Positions 4,580 to 61,195 of a stretch of 64,000 nucleotides of DNA are shown here, one piece after another. The notes beneath the pieces are model-generated. The model was not told the origin of the DNA. It did not search any database and was given only the letters and a program-made list of their open reading frames with translations. Origin of the DNA: a virus. Made by a program: the position numbers and the translations under genes. The DNA lies in the IMG/VR virus record IMGVR_UViG_3300003323_000666, positions 1 through 64,000 of that record; one strand, 5' to 3'. Position 1 is the first letter of the stretch, and every line of letters begins with the position of its first letter.

Positions 4580-4609
4580 CAAAGATACAACTATTTTCAA
4601 TTACGCAAA
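4580..4609 (-). promoter_or_regulatory. Bacteroidota-type promoter of left-arm operon
   Basis: On the minus strand TTTG (4609-4606), 18 bp, then TATCTTTG (4587-4580), matching the TTTG/TAnnTTTG consensus of the Bacteroidota primary sigma factor. The leader to the RyR gene start at 4533 is about 40 nt. Confidence 0.8.
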
Positions 4610-6090: not shown

Positions 6091-6405
6091 ATGAAAGTAT
6101 TAACACCTGGATACAAGTATGTGGCAGCAAACTTCGAGAATCGTTTTAAGGGTCAGGAGATTCAATTTATAGAGAAAAGGGCAAAATGGGCGGATTACCC
6201 AGAAGACATTACAACTGTAAATGATGGCACTACAAACGAGGAGCTGCTATTGATCCTGATTGATCGCATTGAATTTCTGGATAAGCAATTCGCAAGTCAG
6301 CATAACCATTATGCCCTTAATCATCTCTGGCAGGCCTTGTATGTGCTTCAGGCCAGAACATATGATCGTCAGCAGCGTGGAGTTGAAGGTAAAGCCAAAT
6401 TATAG
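6091..6405 (+). CDS. Probable Acb2/Tad1-type cyclic nucleotide sponge
   Basis: 104 residues. The C-terminal half is a helical hairpin with the layout LLLILIDRIEFLDKQF ... NHYALNHLWQALYVLQART-x-DRQQRGVEGK. This is the signature of the Acb2/Tad1 hairpin domain: two helices ending in RTxDRxxRGVEG. The N-terminus (TPGYKYVAANFENRFKGQEIQFIEK) is the PGHxYxLxNFE...QxIxFIEK strand pair frequently joined to it in phages. Acb2 proteins sequester cyclic nucleotide signals of CBASS and related immunity. The family call rests on motif recognition; the bound ligand is unknown. It is the first gene of the rightward operon and is followed 3 bp later by an AAA ATPase. Confidence 0.8.
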   Translation: MKVLTPGYKYVAANFENRFKGQEIQFIEKRAKWADYPEDITTVNDGTTNEELLLILIDRIEFLDKQFASQHNHYALNHLWQALYVLQARTYDRQQRGVEGKAKL

Positions 6406-6408
6406 CCT

Positions 6409-7665
6409 ATGTCTATTATCTCAGAATTTTTTAAATCACCGGCCATGTCCATCGTTTTGATGGGCTTGGTTGGTTCTGTGGGTTATGCACTCCGCGATTT
6501 TCCCGGGAAGTTATTCAAGCTGATTAATGCCAAAATCGTCTCTCGGTTTGTATTCACAGTGCATATCTATGAGTATGATGAGCTGTTTGATGTTTTTGAG
6601 AAGTGGCTGTGCGTTAATTACCAGCAGCAATACCGGGATGTACAGGCATATATTTCCCAAAGTGCGCCTACGGATGGAGATAAACGAGCAATCAAGGTGC
6701 CTCCAATATTTTTGAAACAGGCTCCAAATATGTTCATTATCTCCCATAACGGGAAGAAAATTGTTGTTACTAAGAAGGAGCAGGTGCTTAACCACGCCAC
6801 CTCTTTCAGCAGCATGTTTGCCTATGAATACATCATTCGGGGTTATCTGGCTAAAAACGAGATCCTGAATCTGTTAGATAATATCGTAAAGGATGCATAT
6901 TCTAAGCTGAGCGCAAATACAATCCGGGTATATACCCATACCGACTATGGCACTTGGGAGTTCTCGGATAATATTTCGGTGAAGCCAATAGATAAAATCA
7001 TACTGCCGTCGAGCTTGAAGGACGGTATGCTGGCGGATGTGGAGAAGTTTTGCGCCAGTAAGGATCGGTATATTAACCTGGGCATTCCATATAAGAGGAC
7101 ATACTGCCTGCATGGCCCTCCCGGTACAGGAAAGACTAGCATATCACTCTCGATAGCATGCCACTTAGGAAGGAATGTATATTCGCTGAACATGAACTCC
7201 ATCCGAAATGACTCTTACCTGCAGAGGGCCTTTAAGGAAATCAGCCCAAATTCTATACTAATTATAGAGGATGTGGACTGTATTTTCAAGAAAAGGGAAA
7301 GTGTTGATTCTGAGGTGTCTTTCTCATCACTGCTCAACTGTATGGATGGCGCTTTCTACAAGGAGGGACTTATTACTTTCATGACCACTAACCACATAGA
7401 GTTATTAGATCCAGCATTATTGAGGGCCGGCCGTACGGATGTGAAGTATGAAATCGGATATCCGGAGGTAGAGCAAATATCCGATTACCTCAGCACATTT
7501 TACAATCAGGCGATAGATCTGGGATTTTACTTCACCAACGAGTCCGTTCCAATGTCAGCCATTCAAGAGGTGTGTATAGCTAATATGGACGACCCCGATG
7601 CTGCCATTGAGGCAATATACGACCTCGTAACCGTTAATAAAAAGTCATTAAAGCATATCGCATGA
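6409..7665 (+). CDS. BCS1-like membrane AAA+ ATPase
   Basis: 418 residues. It has an N-terminal membrane segment (~residues 10-28), a BCS1-type N-domain (to ~210), then an AAA+ module with Walker A GPPGTGKT (236-243), Walker B ILIIEDVD (283-290), and sensor/arginine-finger region TTNHIELLDPALLRAGR (~327-343). Mitochondrial Bcs1 translocates folded protein across the membrane; bacterial and phage homologues have unclear roles. It follows the Acb2-like gene by 3 bp and overlaps the next gene by 4 bp, so all three are probably co-translated. A counter-defence or membrane-remodelling role is inference. Confidence 0.9.
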   Translation: MSIISEFFKSPAMSIVLMGLVGSVGYALRDFPGKLFKLINAKIVSRFVFTVHIYEYDELFDVFEKWLCVNYQQQYRDVQAYISQSAPTDGDKRAIKVPPIFLKQAPNMFIISHNGKKIVVTKKEQVLNHATSFSSMFAYEYIIRGYLAKNEILNLLDNIVKDAYSKLSANTIRVYTHTDYGTWEFSDNISVKPIDKIILPSSLKDGMLADVEKFCASKDRYINLGIPYKRTYCLHGPPGTGKTSISLSIACHLGRNVYSLNMNSIRNDSYLQRAFKEISPNSILIIEDVDCIFKKRESVDSEVSFSSLLNCMDGAFYKEGLITFMTTNHIELLDPALLRAGRTDVKYEIGYPEVEQISDYLSTFYNQAIDLGFYFTNESVPMSAIQEVCIANMDDPDAAIEAIYDLVTVNKKSLKHIA

Positions 7666-8084
7666 CAAATGATATAGATCAACAAGATAAGACATCGTAC
7701 ATAGAAAGCATACAGCGTAATATAGATCGGGCGAGAGCATGGTCATACCCGGTTGGTCAGCTATCCGACGGCTACCACACATTTGATGAGCTTTATGCTC
7801 ACCGTTACATATTATGGGTGAAGTTGTGCGAAATGATGTATATAACCGATAAAACAACTGGAGATCCAAATTCATTGATAAAGGCTAAAAAGAATCATGA
7901 CGGAACAGAGTATGTCGGATACTTCATTCTTGGTTATACTGATCCGACTTCAAAGAAACAGATATCCTATCATCTGCCTATGAAATATTGGGACATGTGT
8001 TATTTTTCCAAAGAGTATGACATTTATCCTGATTACGACGGCCATACATCTACTGACGTTTTAACGCGCCTATCTCAGTTATGA
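7662..8084 (+). CDS. WDGH-type conserved phage protein
   Basis: 140 residues. It carries the full pattern of a widespread phage family: SDGYHTFDELYAHRYILW near residue 34, a central YVGYFILGYT and KQISYHLPMKYWDM, and a C-terminal YDGHTSTDVLTRLSQL (WDGHTxxDVxxRL in most members). Function unknown. It overlaps the ATPase gene by 4 bp and the following gene by 4 bp. Confidence 0.9.
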   Translation: MTNDIDQQDKTSYIESIQRNIDRARAWSYPVGQLSDGYHTFDELYAHRYILWVKLCEMMYITDKTTGDPNSLIKAKKNHDGTEYVGYFILGYTDPTSKKQISYHLPMKYWDMCYFSKEYDIYPDYDGHTSTDVLTRLSQL

Positions 8085-8311
8085 GTAATTTGAACAAGGA
8101 TTTCATCGATCATCTAGCTATCGACGCTTCCATATTGGGAGCAAATCAAATAGTGTTTTATATTAACGAAGATAGTTGGAGTAGGGTTTATATTGAACTT
8201 GAAGAATTTGTTCATTCTAATTTTTATCTTCATGAGATCAAGATAGACGCATTTATTATTACGACTGCCGGAGTTGACATTATCTTTTGTAAAAAGTATA
8301 AAATTAACTAG
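8081..8311 (+). CDS. Hypothetical protein
   Basis: 76 residues, overlapping the upstream gene by 4 bp (ATGA). Alternating hydrophobic strands (QIVFYINEDSWSRVYIEL, AFIITTAGVDIIFCKKYKI) suggest a small alpha/beta protein. No family is recognised. The operon spacing supports it as a real gene. Confidence 0.75.
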   Translation: MSNLNKDFIDHLAIDASILGANQIVFYINEDSWSRVYIELEEFVHSNFYLHEIKIDAFIITTAGVDIIFCKKYKIN

Positions 8312-8323
8312 AATCATAGAACC

Positions 8324-8824
8324 ATGGGCTGCGATATACATTTATTTGTACAATACAGGAGAAATGGGAATCCACCTAGTAGGTGGCTGGATTTCGGAGG
8401 CGAATTTAGATTGGATCGTGATTATAAAATGTTCTCATGCCTCGTCGATAGAGTTAGGTCAAAAACTGAGGGCGCTATCATGAAAAGAGGATTGCCAGAT
8501 GACTTAACAGGAGGGCTGCCATTTAGGGTCTTTTATAATGATATAGATGAGTCGGAAGAATTTGGAACTATCTCCATGGATAGGGCTATAAGTAGGGGGC
8601 ATCCAATATTATCTTATCCGTGGTCTCCCAATGAAAAATATACATTAAATAGTGATTTCCATTCACATTCTTGGCTGACGGGTGCAGAATTTTACAAGGC
8701 CATAACATTATACTTAGACACATGCAACCAATTGCCGTCTAGTGATTATATAGCTTTAGAAAGCGCTATACACGAACTGGAGAATGGGAATGAGGTTCGA
8801 GTAATAATTGGGTTTGACAATTAA
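8324..8824 (+). CDS. MGCDIH-family phage protein
   Basis: 166 residues. It begins MGCDIHLFVQYR and contains the downstream landmarks of this widespread phage family: DFGGEFRLDRDYKMFSCLVDRVR, RGLPDDLTGG and DFHSHSWLTGAEFYKA. Several conserved His, Cys and Asp residues suggest a metal site, but no activity is established. The start is fixed by the invariant N-terminal motif. Confidence 0.88.
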   Translation: MGCDIHLFVQYRRNGNPPSRWLDFGGEFRLDRDYKMFSCLVDRVRSKTEGAIMKRGLPDDLTGGLPFRVFYNDIDESEEFGTISMDRAISRGHPILSYPWSPNEKYTLNSDFHSHSWLTGAEFYKAITLYLDTCNQLPSSDYIALESAIHELENGNEVRVIIGFDN

Positions 8825-8829
8825 TTGAT

Positions 8830-9006
8830 ATGTGCCAGAAAGTATCATATAAATCAAGGCAATCGGCAGAATATAATGCCAATAGGATAAAATGCAGTGG
8901 GGCTATTCCTGCAAGGGCATTTCTTAATTCATACTTTTGTAAAACATGTCAATCTTGGCATTTGACCAGATCAACTAGCTGGGATTGGTTTAATAAACTA
9001 AAATAA
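8830..9006 (+). CDS. Small CxxCxxxHLT zinc-binding-like protein
   Basis: 58 residues from ATG 8830 to TAA 9006, whose last base is the A of the next ATG. The N-terminal half is basic (YKSRQSAEYNANRIK). The C-terminal half has YFCKTCQSWHLTRS, which with the preceding Cys residues suggests a zinc knuckle. A relative with YYCDECSGYHITSRP sits at 16094-16282 on the other strand. The YxCxxCxxxHLTS end is typical of tiny phage proteins of unknown function. Confidence 0.8.
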   Translation: MCQKVSYKSRQSAEYNANRIKCSGAIPARAFLNSYFCKTCQSWHLTRSTSWDWFNKLK

Positions 9007-9203
9007 TGAATAAAGAGGAACTACAACATGAAATAGAATGCGCCATTTATGATCATTTTGTGTCGATGAGGCGCGAAATTCAGAAAGCTCACAAGCGACC
9101 TCTTAACAAAGAGGAAATTCGTCAATGTGCCGGAGATGCAGCTGATCATATTATAGATTTTATTTTGGACATATCTTTTAACGAAAATGAAGAAACAAAA
9201 TGA
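9006..9203 (+). CDS. Hypothetical helical protein
   Basis: 65 residues, translationally coupled to its neighbour (TAATG at 9004-9008). It is helical and charged throughout (IECAIYDHFVSMRREIQKAH, KEEIRQCAGDAADHIIDFIL). No motif beyond coiled-coil-like helices. It overlaps the next gene by 4 bp. Confidence 0.78.
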   Translation: MNKEELQHEIECAIYDHFVSMRREIQKAHKRPLNKEEIRQCAGDAADHIIDFILDISFNENEETK

Positions 9204-9415
9204 AGGCATACATTGGAGTAAAAATAGTTCAAGCTGAGCCGATGGGATTATTAGAGTTCAGTCGCACCCATCTCAGAAATATTACTATACCATCCGGCAC
9301 TCCTGAAGAAGGGTATAAAGTAGTATATGAAGATGGCTATACTTATTGGTCACCTAAAGGGACTTTTGAGCGCTGCTACCGTGAAATTACTGACGCTGAA
9401 AAAGATTTGATATGA
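9200..9415 (+). CDS. Conserved small phage protein (YIGxKxxxAxPM)
   Basis: 71 residues with the layout AYIGVKIVQAEPM ... EEGYKVVYEDGYTYWSPKGTFERCYR. This pattern (IGxKxIxAxPMxxxEF, then GYxVxYxDGYxSWSPKxxFExAYR) recurs in accessory regions of many phages. Function unknown. It is coupled to both neighbours by short overlaps. Confidence 0.85.
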   Translation: MKAYIGVKIVQAEPMGLLEFSRTHLRNITIPSGTPEEGYKVVYEDGYTYWSPKGTFERCYREITDAEKDLI

Positions 9416-9525
9416 TTTGCATGATTTCTTGGGACGTGCTAGGTATATTTTTTATATATACCGCCGTTATTTTATGGGCTGGGCTTTGTTGGGGATATGA
9501 TATGGGTAAAAAAGATCGTAAATAA
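9412..9525 (+). CDS. Small membrane protein, 37 residues
   Basis: 37 codons from ATG 9412 (ATGA overlap with the upstream stop) to TAA 9525. A single hydrophobic segment (VLGIFFIYTAVILWAGLCWG) is followed by a basic tail (GKKDRK), giving one membrane span with the C-terminus probably cytoplasmic. Function unknown. Confidence 0.65.
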   Translation: MICMISWDVLGIFFIYTAVILWAGLCWGYDMGKKDRK

Positions 9526-9531
9526 AACACT

Positions 9532-10149
9532 ATGGCTTTAACATTCGAACAATTACAATCTGCCGTTAAAAATGGCGATCATATTACAATTGACGGTCAA
9601 GATGTTTATGATACCCACATCTGTATCATGGGAAGGCCGAATGGATTCGGGGCAGTCCACATCGCACTTTGGGCTGGGGATAAAAAATATGATTGCTATA
9701 GTGATGATAATATAAGTAGTTATGGTCGTCTGAATGCGACTGAACAGATGTCTATAGAGTCACAATATGCAAAACAGGCGGAAGAGCGTGCTATACCATA
9801 TAATCCATATAAAACGACTGGTGAAATGATAGAGGCCTATAAAAAGAGGGCTGCTGAAGACGTAGTTGATCGATCAGGTTTGCCTACTGAAGAAATAGTT
9901 CTCTCTAGTATTTTTACCCAAGAGGAGGTTAAAGAAATGAAAAGAAACAAAGAATCTGAAAAGGAAAATAGATCTGCATTACTGGTTGAAACAGAAAACT
10001 TTGTTGTAACATTTGTTACAGATAATAATCATGTGATTGCTTTCTGCGAACACGACCGCAGCCTTATTTCACAACACCATACTAAGGAAGAGGCACTACT
10101 AGGTCTTGTGAATTTATATGTAACATCTCAAAAAGATAAAAACATATAA
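9532..10149 (+). CDS. Hypothetical protein
   Basis: 205 residues. The N-terminal ~80 residues form beta-rich segments (GDHITIDGQDVYDTHICIM, GFGAVHIALWAGDKKYDCYS). The rest is helical and highly charged (EEVKEMKRNKESEKENRS) with a final beta segment (FVVTFVTDNNHVIAFCE). No family is recognised. Confidence 0.8.
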   Translation: MALTFEQLQSAVKNGDHITIDGQDVYDTHICIMGRPNGFGAVHIALWAGDKKYDCYSDDNISSYGRLNATEQMSIESQYAKQAEERAIPYNPYKTTGEMIEAYKKRAAEDVVDRSGLPTEEIVLSSIFTQEEVKEMKRNKESEKENRSALLVETENFVVTFVTDNNHVIAFCEHDRSLISQHHTKEEALLGLVNLYVTSQKDKNI

Positions 10150-10151
10150 TA

Positions 10152-10334
10152 ATGAAAATCAAAGATGAGTTTCAATATCAATGTGTTGTAAGGGAGTTGA
10201 ATTATTATGAGCGTCGGATCAATGAAAACAATCCATTATTGCCCACCGAGGAATCCAGGCGTCAAGAGTTGGAGTTGGCAATAGCTGAGTGGGAAACAGA
10301 AACTAAGGATAACGAATCATCTAAAATAGATTAA
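10152..10334 (+). CDS. Small helical protein
   Basis: 60 residues, 2 bp after the upstream stop. Helical hairpin-like composition (YQCVVRELNYYERRINENNP-LLPTEESRRQELELAIAEWE). The NNPLLPTEES turn resembles short helical antitoxin-like or HTH-adjacent phage proteins, but no partner is seen. Confidence 0.7.
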   Translation: MKIKDEFQYQCVVRELNYYERRINENNPLLPTEESRRQELELAIAEWETETKDNESSKID

Positions 10335-10344
10335 AATTAGGAAG

Positions 10345-10758
10345 ATGAAGTATTATACGCCTGCGGAAGAAGATATTCGGGTAGGGTTGAAGTGTGAAAG
10401 GTATTATCCAACCGGTCTAGATATTCTACCTGGTGGATGGTATGAGCATGTGATATCAAAATCAGATATATGTTATTTAAATTCAACTGAAGGTAATATT
10501 TATAATATACGCGTTCCCTACCTCACCGCTGAGCAGATAGAGGCTGAAGGATGGGAACGTTGTTTTTTGGACAATGAATTTAAAAAAACGATCGGCCCAA
10601 ATAAAACTAGGGCCTCTGAATATTGGATGATTGTCTTTAATCATCTAAATGAGATCGATATTAAGGAGACAACTAATGATAGTCATAAAAGACTATACTA
10701 TGGATCATGTCGCTGCATTAATGATTTGCGCCTGATATCCAAGCTACTAGGCATTTAA
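10345..10758 (+). CDS. Conserved phage protein of unknown function
   Basis: 137 residues. It begins YYTPAEEDIRVGLKCERYY, where P-x-EEDIRxGxxxE resembles the YxPxxEEFxVGFxYE opening of a small phage family. The centre has a tandem of charged helices (LTAEQIEAEGWERC) and the end is basic. No catalytic motif is obvious. Confidence 0.78.
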   Translation: MKYYTPAEEDIRVGLKCERYYPTGLDILPGGWYEHVISKSDICYLNSTEGNIYNIRVPYLTAEQIEAEGWERCFLDNEFKKTIGPNKTRASEYWMIVFNHLNEIDIKETTNDSHKRLYYGSCRCINDLRLISKLLGI

Positions 10759-10781
10759 TTATATCACCTAAACTATACACT

Positions 10782-11075
10782 ATGGCTATTTTTATCGTTA
10801 ATGACAGCATGTGTAAAGAGGCTTCGGCCAGTGCATGTTTTGATAAACTGTTTGATACCTATGGTACGCCGGTGTCCTGCACAACATCGGAAGATATCCT
10901 CAATAAGCGCACAAGATTAAAATTTGATATCCCTGGGATAGGCGAATTGGACGAAGTGAGTATTGAATTTGGTGTTTCAGTGGATGGAACGGTTAAAATG
11001 GGCAAGCCGGTGGTTGTTATGAAATATTCTGATAAACCATATCGGTTGGATATGCCATCAAAAAAAAAGATTTGA
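10782..11075 (+). CDS. Hypothetical protein
   Basis: 97 residues. The N-terminal part (DSMCKEASASACFDKLFDTYG) is helical and the rest is beta-rich (VSIEFGVSVDGTVKMGKPVVVMKY). No family is recognised. It is the last gene before a strong terminator-like hairpin at 11119-11146, so it probably closes the first early transcription unit. Confidence 0.75.
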   Translation: MAIFIVNDSMCKEASASACFDKLFDTYGTPVSCTTSEDILNKRTRLKFDIPGIGELDEVSIEFGVSVDGTVKMGKPVVVMKYSDKPYRLDMPSKKKI

Positions 11076-11118
11076 TAGATCATTTTCTGTGGATGGTTCT
11101 ACAGCGATAAAGAAGATG

Positions 11119-11146
11119 CCTATCATACGCTTTGATAGGATTTTTT
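11119..11146 (+). terminator. Rho-independent terminator
   Basis: CCTATCA-TACGCTT-TGATAGG forms a 7-bp stem followed by six T residues, 43 bp after the stop of the 10782 gene. Confidence 0.8.
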
Positions 11147-11167
11147 AACAATTATGGTGTATGTGCG

Positions 11168-11189
11168 TCCCGGTTAATCTTGACCGGGA
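11168..11189 (+). promoter_or_regulatory. Leader hairpin before 11212 gene
   Basis: TCCCGGT-TAATCTTG-ACCGGGA is a 7-bp stem 22 bp upstream of the ATG at 11212, followed by TATTTAAAA rather than a strong U tract. It could be a second weak terminator or a structured 5' leader. Confidence 0.45.
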
Positions 11190-11211
11190 TATTTAAAACG
11201 CAGATATAAAT

Positions 11212-11445
11212 ATGATGATACAAGAATTTAGAATTTACAGAAGCAATGAAGAGGAAGAACAGGACTTGATAACGCCATGCTCTATTTTGATGGACCAGAT
11301 ATCATCCGCGTATCCTGGAATAGAAGAGCCTGATGCGACTTGTATCAGGTTAAAATGCGGCACGTCGTATATACTAGATATTCCATATAATGATTTCATG
11401 TCAATTTGGAGGGCTTGCATAGATAAATTAGACATAAATATATGA
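11212..11445 (+). CDS. Hypothetical protein
   Basis: 77 residues, acidic N-terminus (RSNEEEEQDLITPCSILMDQ) and a beta-rich centre (ATCIRLKCGTSYILDIPY). It overlaps the IHF-like gene by 4 bp (ATGATG context), indicating coupling. No family is recognised. Confidence 0.75.
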   Translation: MMIQEFRIYRSNEEEEQDLITPCSILMDQISSAYPGIEEPDATCIRLKCGTSYILDIPYNDFMSIWRACIDKLDINI

Positions 11446-11747
11446 TGCGATCAGACTTTAAGCAAAGAGTGGCAAGAAGGGCTAAGACGCCACGGGAGGA
11501 TTCAGATATTGTTGTGGAAGCGGTATTTGAAGAGCTGAAACAATGCCTTTTAAATGGGGATGAGGTGAATATTTACAACTTTGGCCGCTTTTTTTGGAAG
11601 AAATTGAAGGCCAAGAAATGCCAGATAATGAGCATGGGATCATCCAAATCAACACCTATCACGGTTCCTGAGCGATGCATACCCTGGGTGGTGTTTTCCC
11701 CTAAAATAGTGGAAGAAGTAAAGAAAAAATCAATGAAGAATGAGTGA
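11442..11747 (+). CDS. HU/IHF-like DNA-binding protein
   Basis: 101 residues. The order of elements follows the HU/IHF fold: N-terminal helices (SDFKQRVARRAKTPREDSDIVVEAVFEELKQCL), the GDEVNIYNFGRFFWKK strand pair (GxxVxIxxFGxF signature), a beta-arm region, and the C-terminal FSPKIVEEVKKK helix. Family members bend DNA; phage versions act in replication, packaging or transcription. Similar genes are a recurrent element in crAss-like phages. It overlaps both neighbours by 4-8 bp. Confidence 0.88.
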   Translation: MMRSDFKQRVARRAKTPREDSDIVVEAVFEELKQCLLNGDEVNIYNFGRFFWKKLKAKKCQIMSMGSSKSTPITVPERCIPWVVFSPKIVEEVKKKSMKNE

Positions 11748-12252
11748 AATATACCATAAAGAGAACCCTTTTTTGGATGAAATATATAAAGTCGTCATTC
11801 CGGTAACTAAGCGGAAAAGGCTACGGGCCGTTATAATGGATTCGTCCACCGGGCAGCTAATATCGGATGCTACCGGTTATAATGTGGTGACCACTAAAGA
11901 GCATTTGTTCCCGGGGTATCAGGATATTCAACCATATGTAAAACTATATGCCAACCAAGTATCGTTTTTGAGGCGGATATCTATCCCCGCCATCCATGTA
12001 TTTTCATATATTATAGAAAACCTGAAGTGCAAGCAGACTAACATTGTCCTGGAGCCAACCATTTTGGCTAAGGAATTAAATTATAAGACCGATAGATCGA
12101 TTTACAATGGCATATTAGATCTGGTAAAAGAAAAGGTTATTGCTCGGGCATATACCGGCAAGCGGGCAACCCCTACCTACTGGATAAACCCTACTTTTTT
12201 TTATAATGGGAACAGGCAGAACCTATTGGCAGATAAATCTACTGGTGAATAG
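11740..12252 (+). CDS. RepL/RepA-like winged-helix protein
   Basis: 170 residues. The region 65-160 reads as a winged helix of plasmid-replication initiator type: YVKLYANQVSFLRRISIPA, then VLEPTILAKELNYKTDRSIY, GILDLVKEKVIARA, and the closing YWINPTFFYNGNR, a motif typical of RepL/firmicute Rep proteins (YxINPxxFFxGxR). It follows the IHF-like gene with an 8-bp overlap. A replication-initiation or transcription-control role is inference; the class call rests on the C-terminal motif. Confidence 0.78.
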   Translation: MSEIYHKENPFLDEIYKVVIPVTKRKRLRAVIMDSSTGQLISDATGYNVVTTKEHLFPGYQDIQPYVKLYANQVSFLRRISIPAIHVFSYIIENLKCKQTNIVLEPTILAKELNYKTDRSIYNGILDLVKEKVIARAYTGKRATPTYWINPTFFYNGNRQNLLADKSTGE

Positions 12253-12312
12253 GCATGCTTTATGTGCTAAAACTATTGTAACTTTATTTTCAAATACTCA
12301 AAAATTATTACA

Positions 12313-12684
12313 ATGAACGCTCAGGATCAATTCTCTGAAGTAAAACAGGCCATTCGTGCTGGCGGTCCTGCACTTGAACACATGCAGGCTATGATGTCAC
12401 ATGTATTTTTTGAAGAAATGCAGCGAGCCGGATATCCTAATCAGCCGGATCGAATTAAAGAAGTATCTTTTATTGCTACCAAACGGTTCCTTCAGGAGTG
12501 GTCTACCGAACCACATAAAGCTGATCCATCGGTTGAGACTGAGAATGAACGGTTGGCTCGTGTCGCTAATGAAGATCGTGAGAACAGGGAGGCACAGCTG
12601 GAATCAGAGAAGTCAGAAGAAAAACCAGGTGAGGCCGAAGGTGAAACATCTGTAAAGAAAGACAATTCAAGAAAAACCAAGTAA
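12313..12684 (+). CDS. Acidic helical protein with charged tail
   Basis: 123 residues. The N-terminal 70 residues are helical (MQAMMSHVFFEEMQRAGYP, FIATKRFLQEWS), followed by a highly charged disordered tail (EDRENREAQLESEKSEEKPG, then KKDNSRKTK). No family is recognised. A terminator-like hairpin at 12690-12745 follows. Confidence 0.75.
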   Translation: MNAQDQFSEVKQAIRAGGPALEHMQAMMSHVFFEEMQRAGYPNQPDRIKEVSFIATKRFLQEWSTEPHKADPSVETENERLARVANEDRENREAQLESEKSEEKPGEAEGETSVKKDNSRKTK

Positions 12685-12689
12685 ATGAT

Positions 12690-12745
12690 CGGGGCGGCAT
12701 GCAAGAAGCGTTTTTACGAGCGTGAATTTTGTCGTCCCGGTTTTT
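12690..12745 (+). terminator. Rho-independent terminator with long stem
   Basis: CGGGGCGGCA at 12690-12699 pairs with TGTCGTCCCG at 12730-12739 (10 bp including two G-U), followed by five T residues at 12741-12745. It falls between the 12313 and 12757 genes. Confidence 0.65.
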
Positions 12746-12756
12746 AAATAAAATCT

Positions 12757-13026
12757 ATGGACAACATAAATTATAATGATATAATAGATCAGAAAATTGG
12801 CGGATTCATCTTGCCGGCAGAAGATAAAATGGCAGTTCAAAATAAGGATCCTCATATTGCGGCTAGGTGCTTAGAACTTGCGCTTAAGAAGTGCGACATG
12901 ATGCAAATCGAGAACGGTCAAGTGTATAAAATGGCTGATGACTTCTACAACTATGTAACTAAACCCGTACCAAATGGACAGACCAAACCTGGTCAATGTG
13001 GACCGACGCATATTAGAGTATATTGA
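12757..13026 (+). CDS. Hypothetical protein
   Basis: 89 residues. A helical centre (IAARCLELALKKCDMMQIEN) is flanked by polar segments. It overlaps the next reading frame by 53 bp, longer than usual here, and both appear genuine from composition. No family is recognised. Confidence 0.7.
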   Translation: MDNINYNDIIDQKIGGFILPAEDKMAVQNKDPHIAARCLELALKKCDMMQIENGQVYKMADDFYNYVTKPVPNGQTKPGQCGPTHIRVY

Positions 13027-13312
13027 ACACCTGGAAAATAAGCTGAATGGATTCAACAATAACGGGGCGGTCAAATTTATGGCGGCCCTTAACCGCAAAC
13101 TCGAATTATTGGCAGAGCAAATCGACAACGCTAAGATTGATTTCGAGGCGAAGGACGATAAGCTATACGAAAGGTTTCTTAATACAGCCAAAATCGGTAA
13201 AGATCTTGCGTCCGATTTTAAAGCCTTTATCCTGGAGTATGGCGACACCATCAAAGAAGATACTTCAAAGAAAATACCACTTGTTGAAAGACATGCTCGC
13301 AAAGTTTCTTAA
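12974..13312 (+). CDS. Coiled-coil protein
   Basis: 112 residues, almost wholly helical and charged (NVDRRILEYIEHLENKLNG, LNRKLELLAEQIDNAKIDFE). The C-terminal part continues as an amphipathic helix. A 53-bp overlap with the upstream gene and a 20-bp overlap with the small membrane protein downstream suggest coupling. Function unknown. Confidence 0.75.
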   Translation: MDRPNLVNVDRRILEYIEHLENKLNGFNNNGAVKFMAALNRKLELLAEQIDNAKIDFEAKDDKLYERFLNTAKIGKDLASDFKAFILEYGDTIKEDTSKKIPLVERHARKVS

Positions 13313-13403
13313 TGACCATGAAGAGATAGCCCCAACAGTATTATTCCTGTGGGGCTTTAGTATAGGGATGGCGATATGGTTAATAATTAAATTGATCTTT
13401 TAG
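13293..13403 (+). CDS. Small membrane protein, 36 residues
   Basis: ATG 13293 to TAG 13403 encodes 36 residues with a single strong C-terminal membrane segment (TVLFLWGFSIGMAIWLIIKL). The same frame is open further upstream (13047), but the extension overlaps an accepted gene and looks like shadow sequence. The end overlaps the GTG start of the wHTH gene by one base. Confidence 0.65.
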   Translation: MLAKFLNDHEEIAPTVLFLWGFSIGMAIWLIIKLIF

Positions 13404-14071
13404 TGAGGCATAAGATAAAAACACTGGATCCGCGCCGTGCTTCAAGGGCCGTCCTTATAGACGCATATATAAAGATGCGTGATACATTGATGTCATACCG
13501 CATCGCCATTCATAAAATGCGTAAAACGAGAAAGGGACTGAAGGAGCGTGTTACCAATAGGGCATATCAACACTACAATTTCATATACAAAGCCCGATTC
13601 AAGAATTATAAGAAAGAACAACAGCGCCGTGCCAGAGTACAGGTTAAAAAGAGGGCCAATAAGCGTGTGGCAAAGATCAAACGCCGCGTATTTGTAACAC
13701 GAGCCAGTACCCGCTTTAGGGAGGTTGGGCTATATGGCATGCTATTATTCATCCTTGCCAAGAGAACACAGATCCGAGGAACTTATCTATCATTTTTCAT
13801 ATGGGCTGGAGAGTTTGAAATGTTTGACTATAAGACCTTCAAAATACAGCTAAGGAAATATGGCCCTTCCAGATTTACAATTACTATCAAGTATTTGATT
13901 AATCTTGGATTGGTATACAGGGTCAATGAGTTTGGAACGAGTAAGATATATGCTTTGACCGCAGATGGGAGGGCGCTACACGATAAAATAAGGAGGTTTT
14001 TAAGAAACCATGCCATTCTAAAGACTACCGAATTACGAAAACAGATCGAATTTAAGAAGCATGCAGACTGA
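13403..14071 (+). CDS. Basic winged-helix protein upstream of TerL
   Basis: 222 residues with a GTG start sharing a base with the upstream TAG. The N-terminal ~100 residues are extremely basic and helical (KEQQRRARVQVKKRANKRVA). The C-terminal ~120 form a winged helix (FTITIKYLINLGLVYRVNEFGTSKIYALTADGR resembles a MarR-like recognition helix and wing). It overlaps TerL by 11 bp. Position directly upstream of the large terminase makes a small-terminase or packaging-DNA recognition role plausible, but this is inference from position. Confidence 0.78.
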   Translation: MRHKIKTLDPRRASRAVLIDAYIKMRDTLMSYRIAIHKMRKTRKGLKERVTNRAYQHYNFIYKARFKNYKKEQQRRARVQVKKRANKRVAKIKRRVFVTRASTRFREVGLYGMLLFILAKRTQIRGTYLSFFIWAGEFEMFDYKTFKIQLRKYGPSRFTITIKYLINLGLVYRVNEFGTSKIYALTADGRALHDKIRRFLRNHAILKTTELRKQIEFKKHAD

Positions 14072-28144: not shown

Positions 28145-28918
28145 TTATAATTGATATTCAAGTCCAGTTACAATCGCCCCCGCAAAATCTCGTTCAAAAT
28201 TCACTCTGATAACCGTACGATATTCATTATCCCATTTATAAGCCAGTTCAATGTCGGACAACTTTTTAACAACGATAATATCCCCCTCCTTAATACAGTC
28301 CATACGAATTACATCTCCAATCAACCTTCCCTCTCTCTGCGATTCAGTCACAAAATATCGCTCTGGGAAGGCAGGCATTTTATCTACACGAACATAACAG
28401 AGATATTTTTCTTTTTTCTCCATGGCTAGTCTCACATTAGCAAAGTCATCCGTACTGGACGATATTTTACCTCTAAAAGAGTCCATAAAGGCGCGATCTT
28501 CTTCTGTAAATTGCCCTGGTAAATACAATCTGGAACATACCATATTGCTGCCCAACGGGAATAATTCTCCCTCTTCTATTTTGAACCAGCACATGCTATA
28601 TGGTACGCAAAACGCCTGCTCATTATCATTTATCTCAATTCCCATTTTTTTTAGCTGTACTGTATCCATCTCCAAGGCATCATTCCTATATGCCTGATAT
28701 GAGGTTAATAGATAATCTCCAGCTTTTATTTCCCCGGAGTCGCTTAATGCACGCCCTAATGTCGCCCCGTCCCAGCCATTAAATGACCATTCTGGAAATC
28801 CAACAAATAGTTGTGCGTAGGTGCCATCATTTTTACGGATGTTTTTTGTTGTTTTTTGGTCTTTAAACACAGAAATGATAACGCGTTTTTGACCTAGGTG
28901 ATCGTTTGTAGCTCTCAT
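28145..28918 (-). CDS. Isolated inverted gene of unknown function
   Basis: About 257 residues from ATG 28918 (MRATNDHLGQKRVIISVF). The frame is open from 29050, but the extra part is unusual in composition and likely leader. Alpha/beta composition with Trp/Gly-rich N-terminal part (FVGFPEWSFNGWDGATLGRA) and a C-terminal beta domain (DIIVVKKLSDIELAYKWDNE). No family is recognised. It is the only leftward gene within the virion operon, closed by a terminator and facing the divergent gene 29139. It could be a moron expressed independently of late transcription. Confidence 0.78.
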   Translation of the reverse strand: MRATNDHLGQKRVIISVFKDQKTTKNIRKNDGTYAQLFVGFPEWSFNGWDGATLGRALSDSGEIKAGDYLLTSYQAYRNDALEMDTVQLKKMGIEINDNEQAFCVPYSMCWFKIEEGELFPLGSNMVCSRLYLPGQFTEEDRAFMDSFRGKISSSTDDFANVRLAMEKKEKYLCYVRVDKMPAFPERYFVTESQREGRLIGDVIRMDCIKEGDIIVVKKLSDIELAYKWDNEYRTVIRVNFERDFAGAIVTGLEYQL

Positions 28919-29123
28919 GTTCCTGAAAATATTAAAATCATAGAAATTATTAACATTAAACTGTATAAAATGGCAAGAAATATACTTCCTGAGATTAATG
29001 ACCAGATAAGTAGAAATAAAGTTGCTACTGATGATAGCCTGATTAGCCATTCATAATCTATTCGATATTTTTTCATTTACGTAAACTACTCAATAATTAT
29101 ATATCTATCAAATAGTTTTTTCA

Positions 29124-54114: not shown

Positions 54115-54677
54115 TGGCTAATTTCCTCAAGGCTTTTTCTAAGATAATGCCCGCTGAAGGAGGGTACGTAAATCATGCCTTAGACCGTGGAGGCGAAACC
54201 TACAAAGGGATTTCTCGTAATTATCACGGTACTTGGCCTGGATGGATTTTGATAGAGCGTTACAAACGGCTCCCTAATTTCCCGGATAATTTAGAGGAAA
54301 GTCAATCATTGAAAGATCATGTACAGGTTTTCTATAAATCTAACTTCTGGGATATAAATAAGTTGGACCTGATACAAAATCAAGATATCGCGGAAGAGCT
54401 TTTTGATACAGGCGTTAATATGGGAACCAAAATAGCTGCTGAATTCTTACAAAAAGCATATAATTTATTATCTAAGAACGGCGTGGAGTATGATAAAATC
54501 TCGGTTGACGGGATAATAGGCAATAAAACATTATCAGCAATCAATAATCACAAATACCCTAAAAGAATATTCAAAACCCTTAATATATTACAGGGATCCA
54601 GATATATTTCTATATGCGAGAAAGATCCTTCTCAAGAAGAATTCTTTGCCGGATGGATTAGCCGAGTGGAGATTTAA
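54114..54677 (+). CDS. GH108-type endolysin
   Basis: 187 residues. The N-terminal EGGYVNHALDRGGETYKGIS motif is the active-site region of glycoside hydrolase family 108 lysozymes (EGGYxxxxxDxGGxTxxGIS, E catalytic). The C-terminal part (LFDTGVNMGTKIAAEFLQKA, YDKISVDGIIGNKTLSAINN) matches the family peptidoglycan-binding domain. No signal peptide, so release needs a holin. Its stop overlaps the stop of the convergent gene by 4 bp, without a terminator. Confidence 0.93.
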   Translation: MANFLKAFSKIMPAEGGYVNHALDRGGETYKGISRNYHGTWPGWILIERYKRLPNFPDNLEESQSLKDHVQVFYKSNFWDINKLDLIQNQDIAEELFDTGVNMGTKIAAEFLQKAYNLLSKNGVEYDKISVDGIIGNKTLSAINNHKYPKRIFKTLNILQGSRYISICEKDPSQEEFFAGWISRVEI

Positions 54678-56710
54678 GGATAAAATGTAATGATACCCAT
54701 TCCTGCCGTAACATCGCCGGAAGCCCCACCCAATCCCCAAAGGCCAAATGATATGGGGGCTGTGTAATTAAGTCCCGTTATTTCAACATATGCAGAATTC
54801 ATGCGACCAAAATCTACGGTCAATCGGCCCGTAGTAGTTCCCGTTCGAATAAATGCAACTCGAACAGACCATCTTTCACCACTATATGCCGCTTGATCAC
54901 TGGAAGAGGATCCGGTGCCATTTACAAACATCTGCAACCCCTTAGTATTTGCATTGGCGGCGAAAGCCCCTCCATACTCTGCAATTATATATTGTCCATT
55001 AGATGTGAGGGTATTTGAAGGGATAGAATATCCATATAATTGCGAAAAAGTACCAGAAGAACTATTAGAAGCATCAGTAAAGAAAGTTGTTAAAGTCCTT
55101 GGGGCACTAGAAGTGACATTTGTTAATAAATTCTTGGTTCCGGTCACTTTCCAGGCTGCTCCATCGCTAATTATTGTTACGCCCTTGATCGTATCGCCTA
55201 ATTCATAAGTAGTAAGCCCATCTATATTATTAGATGCCACGTAGCCTCTGCCACCATTAAAATCCTTTATAATGGAATAGATCTTCCCATAATTAGAAGG
55301 CGCTGCATTTGGGATTGTTACTGTAACTCCATTAGTAATGATATTCAATACCGTTTCAGAAGTCAAGCTGGCAGTAGAACTGGTGGACTTATTAACGATG
55401 GCGGCTCCATATCCGTCACTATAAGTAATCCCATTTTGAACAGATAGTTTATATGCCGGAGAAGTAGTTCCAATTCCCACAAATCCATCCGATCTACGAC
55501 CATAAAGTAAATTGCCTAAAAAAACTCCCACATCATCAAATCTATTATAAATAAGATCAGAACCAGAATTAGATCCGGCTTCCACTCCCGTCAACCCCAT
55601 TGTAATACGATCTAATGAATTATTCCTCATTAGCAGATGCGATTGTGAAGAACTTCCAGTCCCAGCATTGGTGAAAATCTTATTTAAAACGCCAGATCCA
55701 GATATATTAAAATTAGCAGATGATTGAGTTGTTGAAAAGTTATTATATATATAATTGCCACTATTGGGCTTTCTTCTTATGCTATCCCATGAAACGGCAA
55801 TTGGGATAGACTGAATATTTGTTATCAAGCCTTTATTATCAACAGTCGCTCTTACCGAGGTTGTATCAGATCCATATGTGCCTGGCGAAACACCATTTAT
55901 AGGGAAATCGGAATTAGCTAATGATCTAAAGGATGGAGGGCCAGATACTCCATTTGGAGATGCAAATACTAAATTGGCTAATTGATTAACAAACGATCCA
56001 GTTAGTATACCACTTGAAGTAACGGGTGATCCTGTAACATTAAATATCGGAGGCAGGGATAAGCCAACAGAAGTCACCGTTCCGGCAGGTGGGGGTGTAA
56101 ATGGTATGTATTGAGAACCATTATATTGCAGCACCTGCCCCGTGGTTGGAGCAGTACCGATAACAGGGATACCTTGTATTTGATTAGCATTCCATAACGC
56201 TGTGGTATTTTGTGCGGAAATAGTGGCAACTGGATTAGTTGATAATGCTTGAGCCGTACCATTGCTTACATTAATACCTGTTCCGGCGATCCACCTAATT
56301 GTTTTAGCATTTGCGACAGGGTCACTCTCAGCAGAAAGATAATTTCTCGGATTAGACCAATAAGGATAATAAATAGTAGAATCTGATATCTTTAGATATC
56401 CACTTCCATCAGAGACTCTACGATACCCAAATTTATCGCGATAGTAAACATAGTTGTCCTTTATTTGGTAAAGTAGGAGCCCATATTTAGGACTAGGAAT
56501 ATCTGCGGTATCCACTACTCGGGGAATGAGCATGGCCCTTGTCGAGCTGTCTTTACCTACTTCCAGATAAGAAGATGGATGCGTTAAGCTGCCATTAGTT
56601 TTTCCAACTCCTACCTGATAATAGTAGATATAATCTGATCCTTTAAATGGTGTTTGTCCAATCGCCATAAAGGACATAGAAATTAATAACATCAACAGAA
56701 AGAACCTCAT
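54674..56710 (-). CDS. Fibre-like protein with signal peptide
   Basis: 678 residues. MRFFLLMLLISMSFMAIGQ is a Sec signal peptide. The rest is typical of fibre-like proteins: low-complexity Ser/Thr/Asn-rich body, PTTGQVLQYNGSQYIPFTPP, many SxNSSSGTFSQ repeats, and a C-terminal trimeric-lectin-like domain. Residues ~50-90 resemble the N-terminus of the 959-residue fibre. No chaperone is seen. It is alone in its unit with its own promoter/dyad (56718-56737) and a terminator between it and the upstream operon. It may be a host-derived secreted protein captured by the phage. Confidence 0.8.
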   Translation of the reverse strand: MRFFLLMLLISMSFMAIGQTPFKGSDYIYYYQVGVGKTNGSLTHPSSYLEVGKDSSTRAMLIPRVVDTADIPSPKYGLLLYQIKDNYVYYRDKFGYRRVSDGSGYLKISDSTIYYPYWSNPRNYLSAESDPVANAKTIRWIAGTGINVSNGTAQALSTNPVATISAQNTTALWNANQIQGIPVIGTAPTTGQVLQYNGSQYIPFTPPPAGTVTSVGLSLPPIFNVTGSPVTSSGILTGSFVNQLANLVFASPNGVSGPPSFRSLANSDFPINGVSPGTYGSDTTSVRATVDNKGLITNIQSIPIAVSWDSIRRKPNSGNYIYNNFSTTQSSANFNISGSGVLNKIFTNAGTGSSSQSHLLMRNNSLDRITMGLTGVEAGSNSGSDLIYNRFDDVGVFLGNLLYGRRSDGFVGIGTTSPAYKLSVQNGITYSDGYGAAIVNKSTSSTASLTSETVLNIITNGVTVTIPNAAPSNYGKIYSIIKDFNGGRGYVASNNIDGLTTYELGDTIKGVTIISDGAAWKVTGTKNLLTNVTSSAPRTLTTFFTDASNSSSGTFSQLYGYSIPSNTLTSNGQYIIAEYGGAFAANANTKGLQMFVNGTGSSSSDQAAYSGERWSVRVAFIRTGTTTGRLTVDFGRMNSAYVEITGLNYTAPISFGLWGLGGASGDVTAGMGIITFYP

Positions 56711-57120: not shown

Positions 57121-58203
57121 TTATTGAAATCCTAATCCCATAATTAAGCCAAAGTATCCAGGATCATCGGGGTGTGAAAGGATGAAGCCGGCCTTATTAT
57201 CTTCTTCCTGTAGGCGCACTGTGACATATTCATATGGCAACGCCCTCAAGCACCGAGACAATGTTCTGACACCAAACTCCACATTTGTTTTAAATCCAGA
57301 GCACTCAGAGTGTTCCACAGCTATATCAGCAACTAAATCTATGTCCATACCCGGTTGCTTACACTCAAGTATCATTCCCGAATCACACGAGTTTATTACT
57401 ACATTCGGTATGACTTTCCCTCCCGAAACAGATATGGCGGTATCGCAGAATGATATAATATGATCCTTAAAAAGAGTCGCCCTATTATCACTCCCCTTAC
57501 GATTAAAAAGTTTTTCCACTGGGAGTGGCGTGAAATCATTTTTTATGAAGCCATAAGTCGTAGTCCCGTTAGTAAAAAGATCGTAATTCCCTGCCGTATA
57601 ATATTGACAGCCGTTTAGTGAGCCGACAAGTGTTGCGGCCTCTTTGTTTAAAGAAAACAATGGTAAAATCTCGTCAAACCGTTTAACATATAGGCCTCCA
57701 TTTGATTCACAGCCATAAATCAGCGTATTATGTTGCCTAGGGACCGAGAATACAAATGAGAACTGATTGGGTATTTCCATTTCCATCACGTAGTTCTTTG
57801 CCACGTCAATTGCCTCGGTCATCTCTGGAGATAGCGCTGTCATTTGGCCGTCACCCTCCGGAAATTTTTGGTACATATCCGGGTTTTCTTTCGAGAACGT
57901 AATCTTGGAAACAGTATCAGAAATTTCTATGCCGTTTTTTCGTTGCTGGATATTTATTACGTCGTCAATAGTATTGCTTATCAACGCAGACAGCTTGCCT
58001 TCGTCAATGAGAATAGTGCAGTCCTCTTTTGATGCAACCTCTACCTGGTGTAGGCAGTAAGAATGAAGATTAGTCTTTGTGAATATTCCCACGTCTCCTT
58101 TTATCTCCAATTTAATATAATCCAAAATTGGGAGTACTCTATTTTGCTTAATAGGCTTGGAAAGTTTCAGAAATTCTTTAAGCTCCTTTGTTGATATAAT
58201 CAT
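57121..58203 (-). CDS. dnaN: DnaN-like sliding clamp
   Basis: 360 residues, the length of a DNA polymerase III beta subunit. Clues: TKELKEFLKLSKPIKQNRVLPILDYIKLEI (first domain with LPIL segment), ILIDEGKLSALIS, a three-domain layout of ~120 residues each, and the C-terminal AGFILSHPDDPGYFGLIMGL, resembling the end of bacterial beta clamps (xxPVxI...YLIMPM-like). Clamps tether polymerases to DNA. No phage polymerase is seen in the window, so it may recruit the host replisome. It overlaps the next gene by 26 bp. Confidence 0.82.
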   Translation of the reverse strand: MIISTKELKEFLKLSKPIKQNRVLPILDYIKLEIKGDVGIFTKTNLHSYCLHQVEVASKEDCTILIDEGKLSALISNTIDDVINIQQRKNGIEISDTVSKITFSKENPDMYQKFPEGDGQMTALSPEMTEAIDVAKNYVMEMEIPNQFSFVFSVPRQHNTLIYGCESNGGLYVKRFDEILPLFSLNKEAATLVGSLNGCQYYTAGNYDLFTNGTTTYGFIKNDFTPLPVEKLFNRKGSDNRATLFKDHIISFCDTAISVSGGKVIPNVVINSCDSGMILECKQPGMDIDLVADIAVEHSECSGFKTNVEFGVRTLSRCLRALPYEYVTVRLQEEDNKAGFILSHPDDPGYFGLIMGLGFQ

Positions 58204-60541: not shown

Positions 60542-61195
60542 CTATTTTATCTTTAAACGTTTTTCAATTTGCTCCTTATATTCAAGCGCTTTTTCTATTT
60601 TTAGCATCATCTTTTCCTCATTTGCCTTTTCTTTCTCACGATACAGCCTAAATATAAACAATCCTAAATCACTATCGATACGAGGATCGAAAGAAACAAA
60701 GTCGCACCAGTCGGCGTTACACACCCTCATATTGCTCACCATTTGCCAATATTCTTCTTTATGAATATCATCTATGGACTCTATTAGGCAATGCTCTAGG
60801 TGATGTGCCGGATCATATGGTGCTTTTATTTCTATTATCCCATTACCCACCTTTATTCTCCCATCAGGGGATCCTCCATATCCAGGAATATCAGATTGAA
60901 TAAACTCGCATTCGGATACCACATTCCCTGTTTTAAGATGATAGTGATATCTCGCCATATCTTCTGCCGCCTTCCCCCAAGAAGTAGGCTCTGTTTTTAA
61001 TTCAAAAGGCACAGATACTTTAGATGCAATTACCTCCAATACATACGCTTTAGCCCCCTCTGATAAATTACCTGCTTCTATATCGGCCTTTAGCTTTGGT
61101 TTAGTCATAAGCCTATATATAGCTGAGGACGTAATATATCCTTTACGAGAATCTTTCCATTCCTGACTCCCCTGTTTTACTTGTTCTTCATCCAT
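60542..61195 (-). CDS. YqaJ-type exonuclease (lambda Exo-like)
   Basis: 217 residues. The YqaJ recombinase layout: QGSQEWKDSRKGYITSS (QGSxEWxxxRxGxxTxS), TSWGKAAEDMARYHYHL (WGxxxExxA), YGGSPDGRIKVGNGIIEIKAPY (GxSPDGL ... xExK active site), KEEYWQMVSNMRVCNADWCD. This 5'-3' exonuclease makes single-stranded tails for the annealing protein encoded just upstream (61177, 19-bp overlap). Confidence 0.92.
   Translation of the reverse strand: MDEEQVKQGSQEWKDSRKGYITSSAIYRLMTKPKLKADIEAGNLSEGAKAYVLEVIASKVSVPFELKTEPTSWGKAAEDMARYHYHLKTGNVVSECEFIQSDIPGYGGSPDGRIKVGNGIIEIKAPYDPAHHLEHCLIESIDDIHKEEYWQMVSNMRVCNADWCDFVSFDPRIDSDLGLFIFRLYREKEKANEEKMMLKIEKALEYKEQIEKRLKIK

Follow-up and report, generated by a model that had tools for sequence, protein, structure and literature searches.

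The genes at the head of a rightward phage operon raise the question of whether a nucleotide sponge and a BCS1-type ATPase encoded side by side form a single counter-defence unit, as an earlier note made from the sequence had proposed, or whether they are separate genes that share a transcript. The window, which is the whole 64,000-nucleotide stretch of DNA that was analysed, comes from a virus record of 71,765 bases. Three co-directional open reading frames, separated by 3 bp or overlapping by 4 bp, had been described, and this arrangement is present at positions 6091-6405, 6409-7665 and 7662-8084 on the plus strand, predicting proteins of 104, 418 and 140 aa, respectively. Genes are referred to below by their first position. 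All three are real genes, taken as such because 6091 and 6409 have full-length homologues elsewhere. The product of 7662 had been named as a WDGH protein and does carry this domain (PF25311, E 1.4e-25, 89.9 bits against a cut-off of 27). A literature search for the WDGH domain gave nothing relevant.

The remainder of the rightward early operon (8081-12252, plus strand) is made up of small accessory genes, mostly with no informative family matches. The gene at 11740-12252 is kept in relatives of the phage, with homologues in the contigs G044, G055 and G056. The accessory gene at 10345-10758 has no family match, and its homologues change position in the relatives G044, G045 and G055. The 101-aa protein encoded at 11442-11747 may be of the HU/IHF DNA-binding type, judged by eye. 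Junctions of 12 nt or less account for 11 of the 14 in the operon, and the tight spacing of 6091, 6409 and 7662 is therefore uninformative and does not single out a module. A scan for sigma-70 promoters and terminators gave no excess over shuffled sequences. A Bacteroidota-type promoter pattern, TTTG-N18-TATCTTTG, is matched at 4580-4609 on the minus strand, ahead of the divergent leftward operon. The host is assigned to the Bacteroidota because of this promoter type, the terminase, which is nearest to those of Flavobacterium and Cellulophaga phages, and a relative of the 6091 protein that sits in a Tenacibaculum genome.

Gene 6091 encodes a divergent member of the known Tad1 family, belonging to a phage branch of approximately 100 aa. 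Pfam and NCBIfam searches of the protein returned no match, and the assignment comes from phrog_2428 (E 1.2e-18), from a phmmer comparison with the solved Tad1 proteins (CmTad1, 8kbb, E 6.6e-6) and from a profile. Relatives are encoded by 42 viral contigs and align over nearly their full length, except for one partial match. With a profile of 36 sequences, the E-values are 1.6e-15 for CmTad1, about 9e-13 for CbTad1 and 2.6e-4 for gp184 (8y6v). The family alignment follows the plan MKVLTxGHKYxLxxFE, QFIEK, NDGTTNEE, KFPCREN and RTxDRxxRxVEG. Structure prediction, which the earlier note had suggested as a check, gave the Tad1 fold: the AlphaFold2 model (pLDDT 92.6) has beta strands in aa 2-44 followed by helices at aa 49-66 and 70-96, and the top 8 Foldseek matches in the PDB are all Tad1, with TM-scores of up to 0.72. 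The best matches include ligand-bound Tad1 (8kbf, E 2.3e-4, TM 0.72), and in the same search nothing besides Tad1 was significant, so that the significant matches include no Acb2 structure.

The 6091 protein shares with CbTad1 (7uav/8kbf) and CmTad1 (8kbb) the overall fold, in which a beta region precedes a C-terminal helix pair, as well as the core motif (D)G..NE and the R..DR...G tail. It differs in being shorter (104 aa versus about 125-132 aa), with a reduced N-terminal region, in the hairpin turn, where FPCREN is replaced by FASQHN, and in an identity of only about 25% in the structural alignment. The 230-aa gp184, of phiKZ type, shares with it the Tad1-type C-terminal region. The gene product had been called Acb2/Tad1-like, and of this description the Tad1 part stands, on fold and profile, and the Acb2 part falls. 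Acb2 (PF24729) likewise has a two-helix hairpin but lacks a beta region, whereas the 6091 protein has an N-terminal beta region, matches only Tad1 structures and does not reach PF24729, which is absent above its curated cut-off from the whole window record. Of 17 further short-Tad1 records examined, 7 score above the curated Acb2_Tad1_hairpin cut-off. Few Bacteroidota genomes carry a short Tad1, with hits at E <= 0.001 in 3 of 395, including one weak match.

The hairpin turn of the protein is divergent. In 6091 it reads QFASQHN (aa 66-72), and the motif of the short branch, KFPCREN, is not kept. Among the 35 relatives compared, K66 is found in 32, P68 in 34, R70 in 26 and E71 in all 35, and the corresponding changes in 6091 are K66Q, P68A, R70Q and E71H. 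W85, present in 29 of the 35, is V in 6091. However, the turn motif marks the short branch and not the Tad1 family, and its loss weakens the claim of an identical ligand range but not that of family membership. The residues for ligand binding in CbTad1, which we take to be F82 and N92 for gcADPR and R109 and R113 for cyclic trinucleotides, align with F62, N72, R89 and R93 of 6091, with identical letters in all four. R89 is invariant in the family and R93 is present in 34 of the 35 relatives. Ligand binding is likely retained, because these four positions are unchanged, though the ligand range may differ, or binding be impaired, given the loss of the invariant E, P68, K66 and W85.

It is improbable that 6091 is a degenerate Tad1 that has lost signal binding and survives by chance or in a different role. 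The invariant E, the PCRE turn and W85 have all been lost, and the protein stays below the PF24729 model, as would suit such a gene. Yet the frame is open at full length and the predicted fold is confident, the NDGTTNEE, QFIEK and R/R/VEG core and the putative ligand residues are intact, and the turn stretch is also changed in the sister branch (L005, L011 and L017).

Gene 6409 encodes a true BCS1-family protein, a known kind of membrane ATPase. This identity, suggested previously, is confirmed by a BCS1_N domain (PF08740, 31.8 bits against a cut-off of 28.1) followed by an AAA domain (PF00004, E 3e-24), by alignment with yeast BCS1 (6sh3) at E 3.9e-38 over aa 50-407, and by Foldseek, where the top 20 matches of the model (pLDDT 76) are all BCS1 or the related YjoB. 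Walker A (GPPGTGKT, aa 236-243) and the Walker B region (EDVD, aa 287-290) are present, and the Walker residues and arginines R339 and R342 are invariant in the alignment. An N-terminal helix anchor at aa 10-29 is probable, being expected from BCS1 homology and a charge-free stretch at aa 10-28. The model has a helix at aa 11-29, at low confidence, and hydropathy here does not exceed the level of shuffled sequence.

The 6409 protein resembles the yeast and mouse mitochondrial chaperone BCS1, and phage BCS1 (phrog_7485), in its BCS1_N and AAA domains, its probable N-terminal helix and its whole-length structural match. It differs from mitochondrial BCS1 in coming from a bacterial virus, with no Rieske protein partner. 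In PADLOC and NCBIfam searches for known defence proteins, only the AAA domain matched, to IetA/IteA and TRIP13, and 6409 was rejected as such a protein. The likeness to the anti-phage ATPase IetA/IteA does not extend beyond the AAA domain (PADLOC E 3.7e-13, NCBIfam E 2e-8) and lies far below the NCBIfam cut-off, and no protease partner was recognised beside 6409.

Adjacency of the two genes in other phages was searched for from both sides. No BCS1_N domain was found in any of the 42 records with a Tad1 relative, in a search that could pick up the domain, since it did so in the window record and, below the cut-off, in one BCS1 relative. Conversely, none of the 10 records recovered via BCS1 relatives contained Tad1. 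In an annotated phage collection searched with phrog_2428, Tad1 occurs in 2 of 15 BCS1 phages, PA1C and Noxifer, where the two genes are about 80 kb and 68 kb apart, respectively, and not adjacent. Most of the records are fragments, and absence of the partner from them is not proof, but together these counts and distances speak against a conserved Tad1-BCS1 pairing. In the records searched, the adjacency was found in this phage only, an outcome that the earlier note had listed under what would refute its proposal, and the two-gene counter-defence module of the earlier note is not borne out.

Relatives of the phage show how the two kinds of gene vary. In contigs G044 and G045 (loci L057 and L058), most structural proteins are 42-65% identical to those of the window, and a BCS1 gene, with a product 44% identical to that of 6409, lies in a minus-strand pocket among the head genes. 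The homologue of window gene 28145 comes immediately before it in L057, and in L058 the two are separated by one small gene. Window gene 28145 (28145-29050) encodes a 301-aa protein with no Pfam or PHROG match, and its place is kept in the window, where BCS1 is missing from that position (compare L057 4342-6296). The intervening 121-aa ORF of L058 (9615-9980) has only sub-threshold Pfam matches and includes an HEIFH motif that looks zinc-protease-like to the eye. A more distant third relative, G043, carries BCS1 in yet another context. Much of the window gene order recurs in G055 (73 kb) and G056 (78 kb), which have neither Tad1 nor BCS1. On the minus strand of the window, at 54674-56710, is a gene for a 678-aa protein that neither PHROG nor Pfam recognises but that is matched in relatives at 52-59% over long stretches. 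It is perhaps a replication enzyme, because its surroundings include a sliding clamp-like gene (57121-58203) and a gene for a YqaJ exonuclease (60542-61195).

None of the five relatives, G043, G044, G045, G055 and G056, encodes Tad1, but each has a hairpin protein of the Acb2 type that exceeds the Pfam cut-off (PF24729, 36-51 bits). The genes are located at L093 1474-1833 (minus strand), L094 1495-1734 (minus), L095 1453-1659, L096 1495-1731 (minus) and L097 1396-1632 (minus), and in none of the five is the Acb2-type gene beside BCS1. Three of them, G044, G045 and G055, carry it within that same pre-terminase operon, among homologues of window genes 11212 to 14061. The window record has Tad1 at the head of the operon where these three have the Acb2-type gene. 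The group thus regularly carries a nucleotide sponge, independently of BCS1, as Acb2-type or Tad1 genes are present with or without it. BCS1 itself has been gained, lost and moved within the group, with no linkage to Tad1.

The reading that best fits these observations, with a probability of approximately 0.8, is that 6091 encodes a Tad1 signal sponge and 6409 an independent BCS1-type ATPase, the two being on one transcript because the operon is tightly packed and not because they form a module. A module in which the sponge takes up the signal of a defence while the ATPase inactivates its membrane effector, or pulls it out, is very unlikely. Many CBASS effectors work at the membrane, the two genes are adjacent, co-directional and 3 bp apart, and the three nearest BCS1 relatives are in records (G043-G045) that also contain an Acb2-type gene. 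Against this, no second adjacency was seen among the Tad1-relative and BCS1-relative records, the genes are far apart where both occur in a jumbo phage, the relatives G055 and G056 keep a sponge though they have no BCS1, and a 3-bp spacing is ordinary for this operon. The present survey refutes the module in weak form. A loose functional link between an Acb2-type sponge and BCS1 in the same cell is conceivable, as G043-G045 carry both. Very improbable, too, is that Tad1 and the ATPase act jointly against a membrane-linked nucleotide defence of Bacteroidota, with the altered turn providing this Tad1 with a new ligand or with a surface on which the ATPase docks.

Rather more plausible, though still less likely than not, is that 6409 is a chaperone for virion assembly or membrane translocation and has nothing to do with defence. 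An assembly role has been proposed for BCS1 of jumbo phages (PMC7824862), and in G044 and G045 the BCS1 gene has head genes around it and is next to, or not far from, the 28145 homologue. However, it is on the opposite strand there, in an accessory pocket, and in the window it belongs to the early operon. Two relatives with the same structural genes have no BCS1, which is consequently not needed for assembly in those phages.

Under the favoured reading of a sponge and an independent ATPase, 6091 is the first gene of an early operon of variable, accessory content in a phage of Bacteroidota. Tad1 sequesters the Thoeris signal, as reviewed in PMC12043709. By analogy with characterised Tad1, the 6091 protein would form dimers that join into trimers of dimers, and would sequester its ligand without cleaving it, that ligand being the Thoeris signal gcADPR and possibly also CBASS cyclic oligonucleotides. 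Capture of the signal would leave the host effector off, and the sponge would probably act against Thoeris and possibly against CBASS. BCS1 proteins are heptameric translocases of folded protein, and we infer that the 6409 protein works separately from the sponge, as an accessory ring ATPase whose probable task at the host membrane is to thread, move or remodel a folded protein. The patchy presence of BCS1 in the group suggests that this task is accessory and not essential.

These assignments place Tad1 sponges in a small group of Bacteroidota phages. The occurrence of Acb2-type genes in relatives where the window has Tad1 fits repeated exchange of sponges under defence pressure. Among members of a single phage group, BCS1 is an accessory gene that moves, and this bears on the function of BCS1 in phages.
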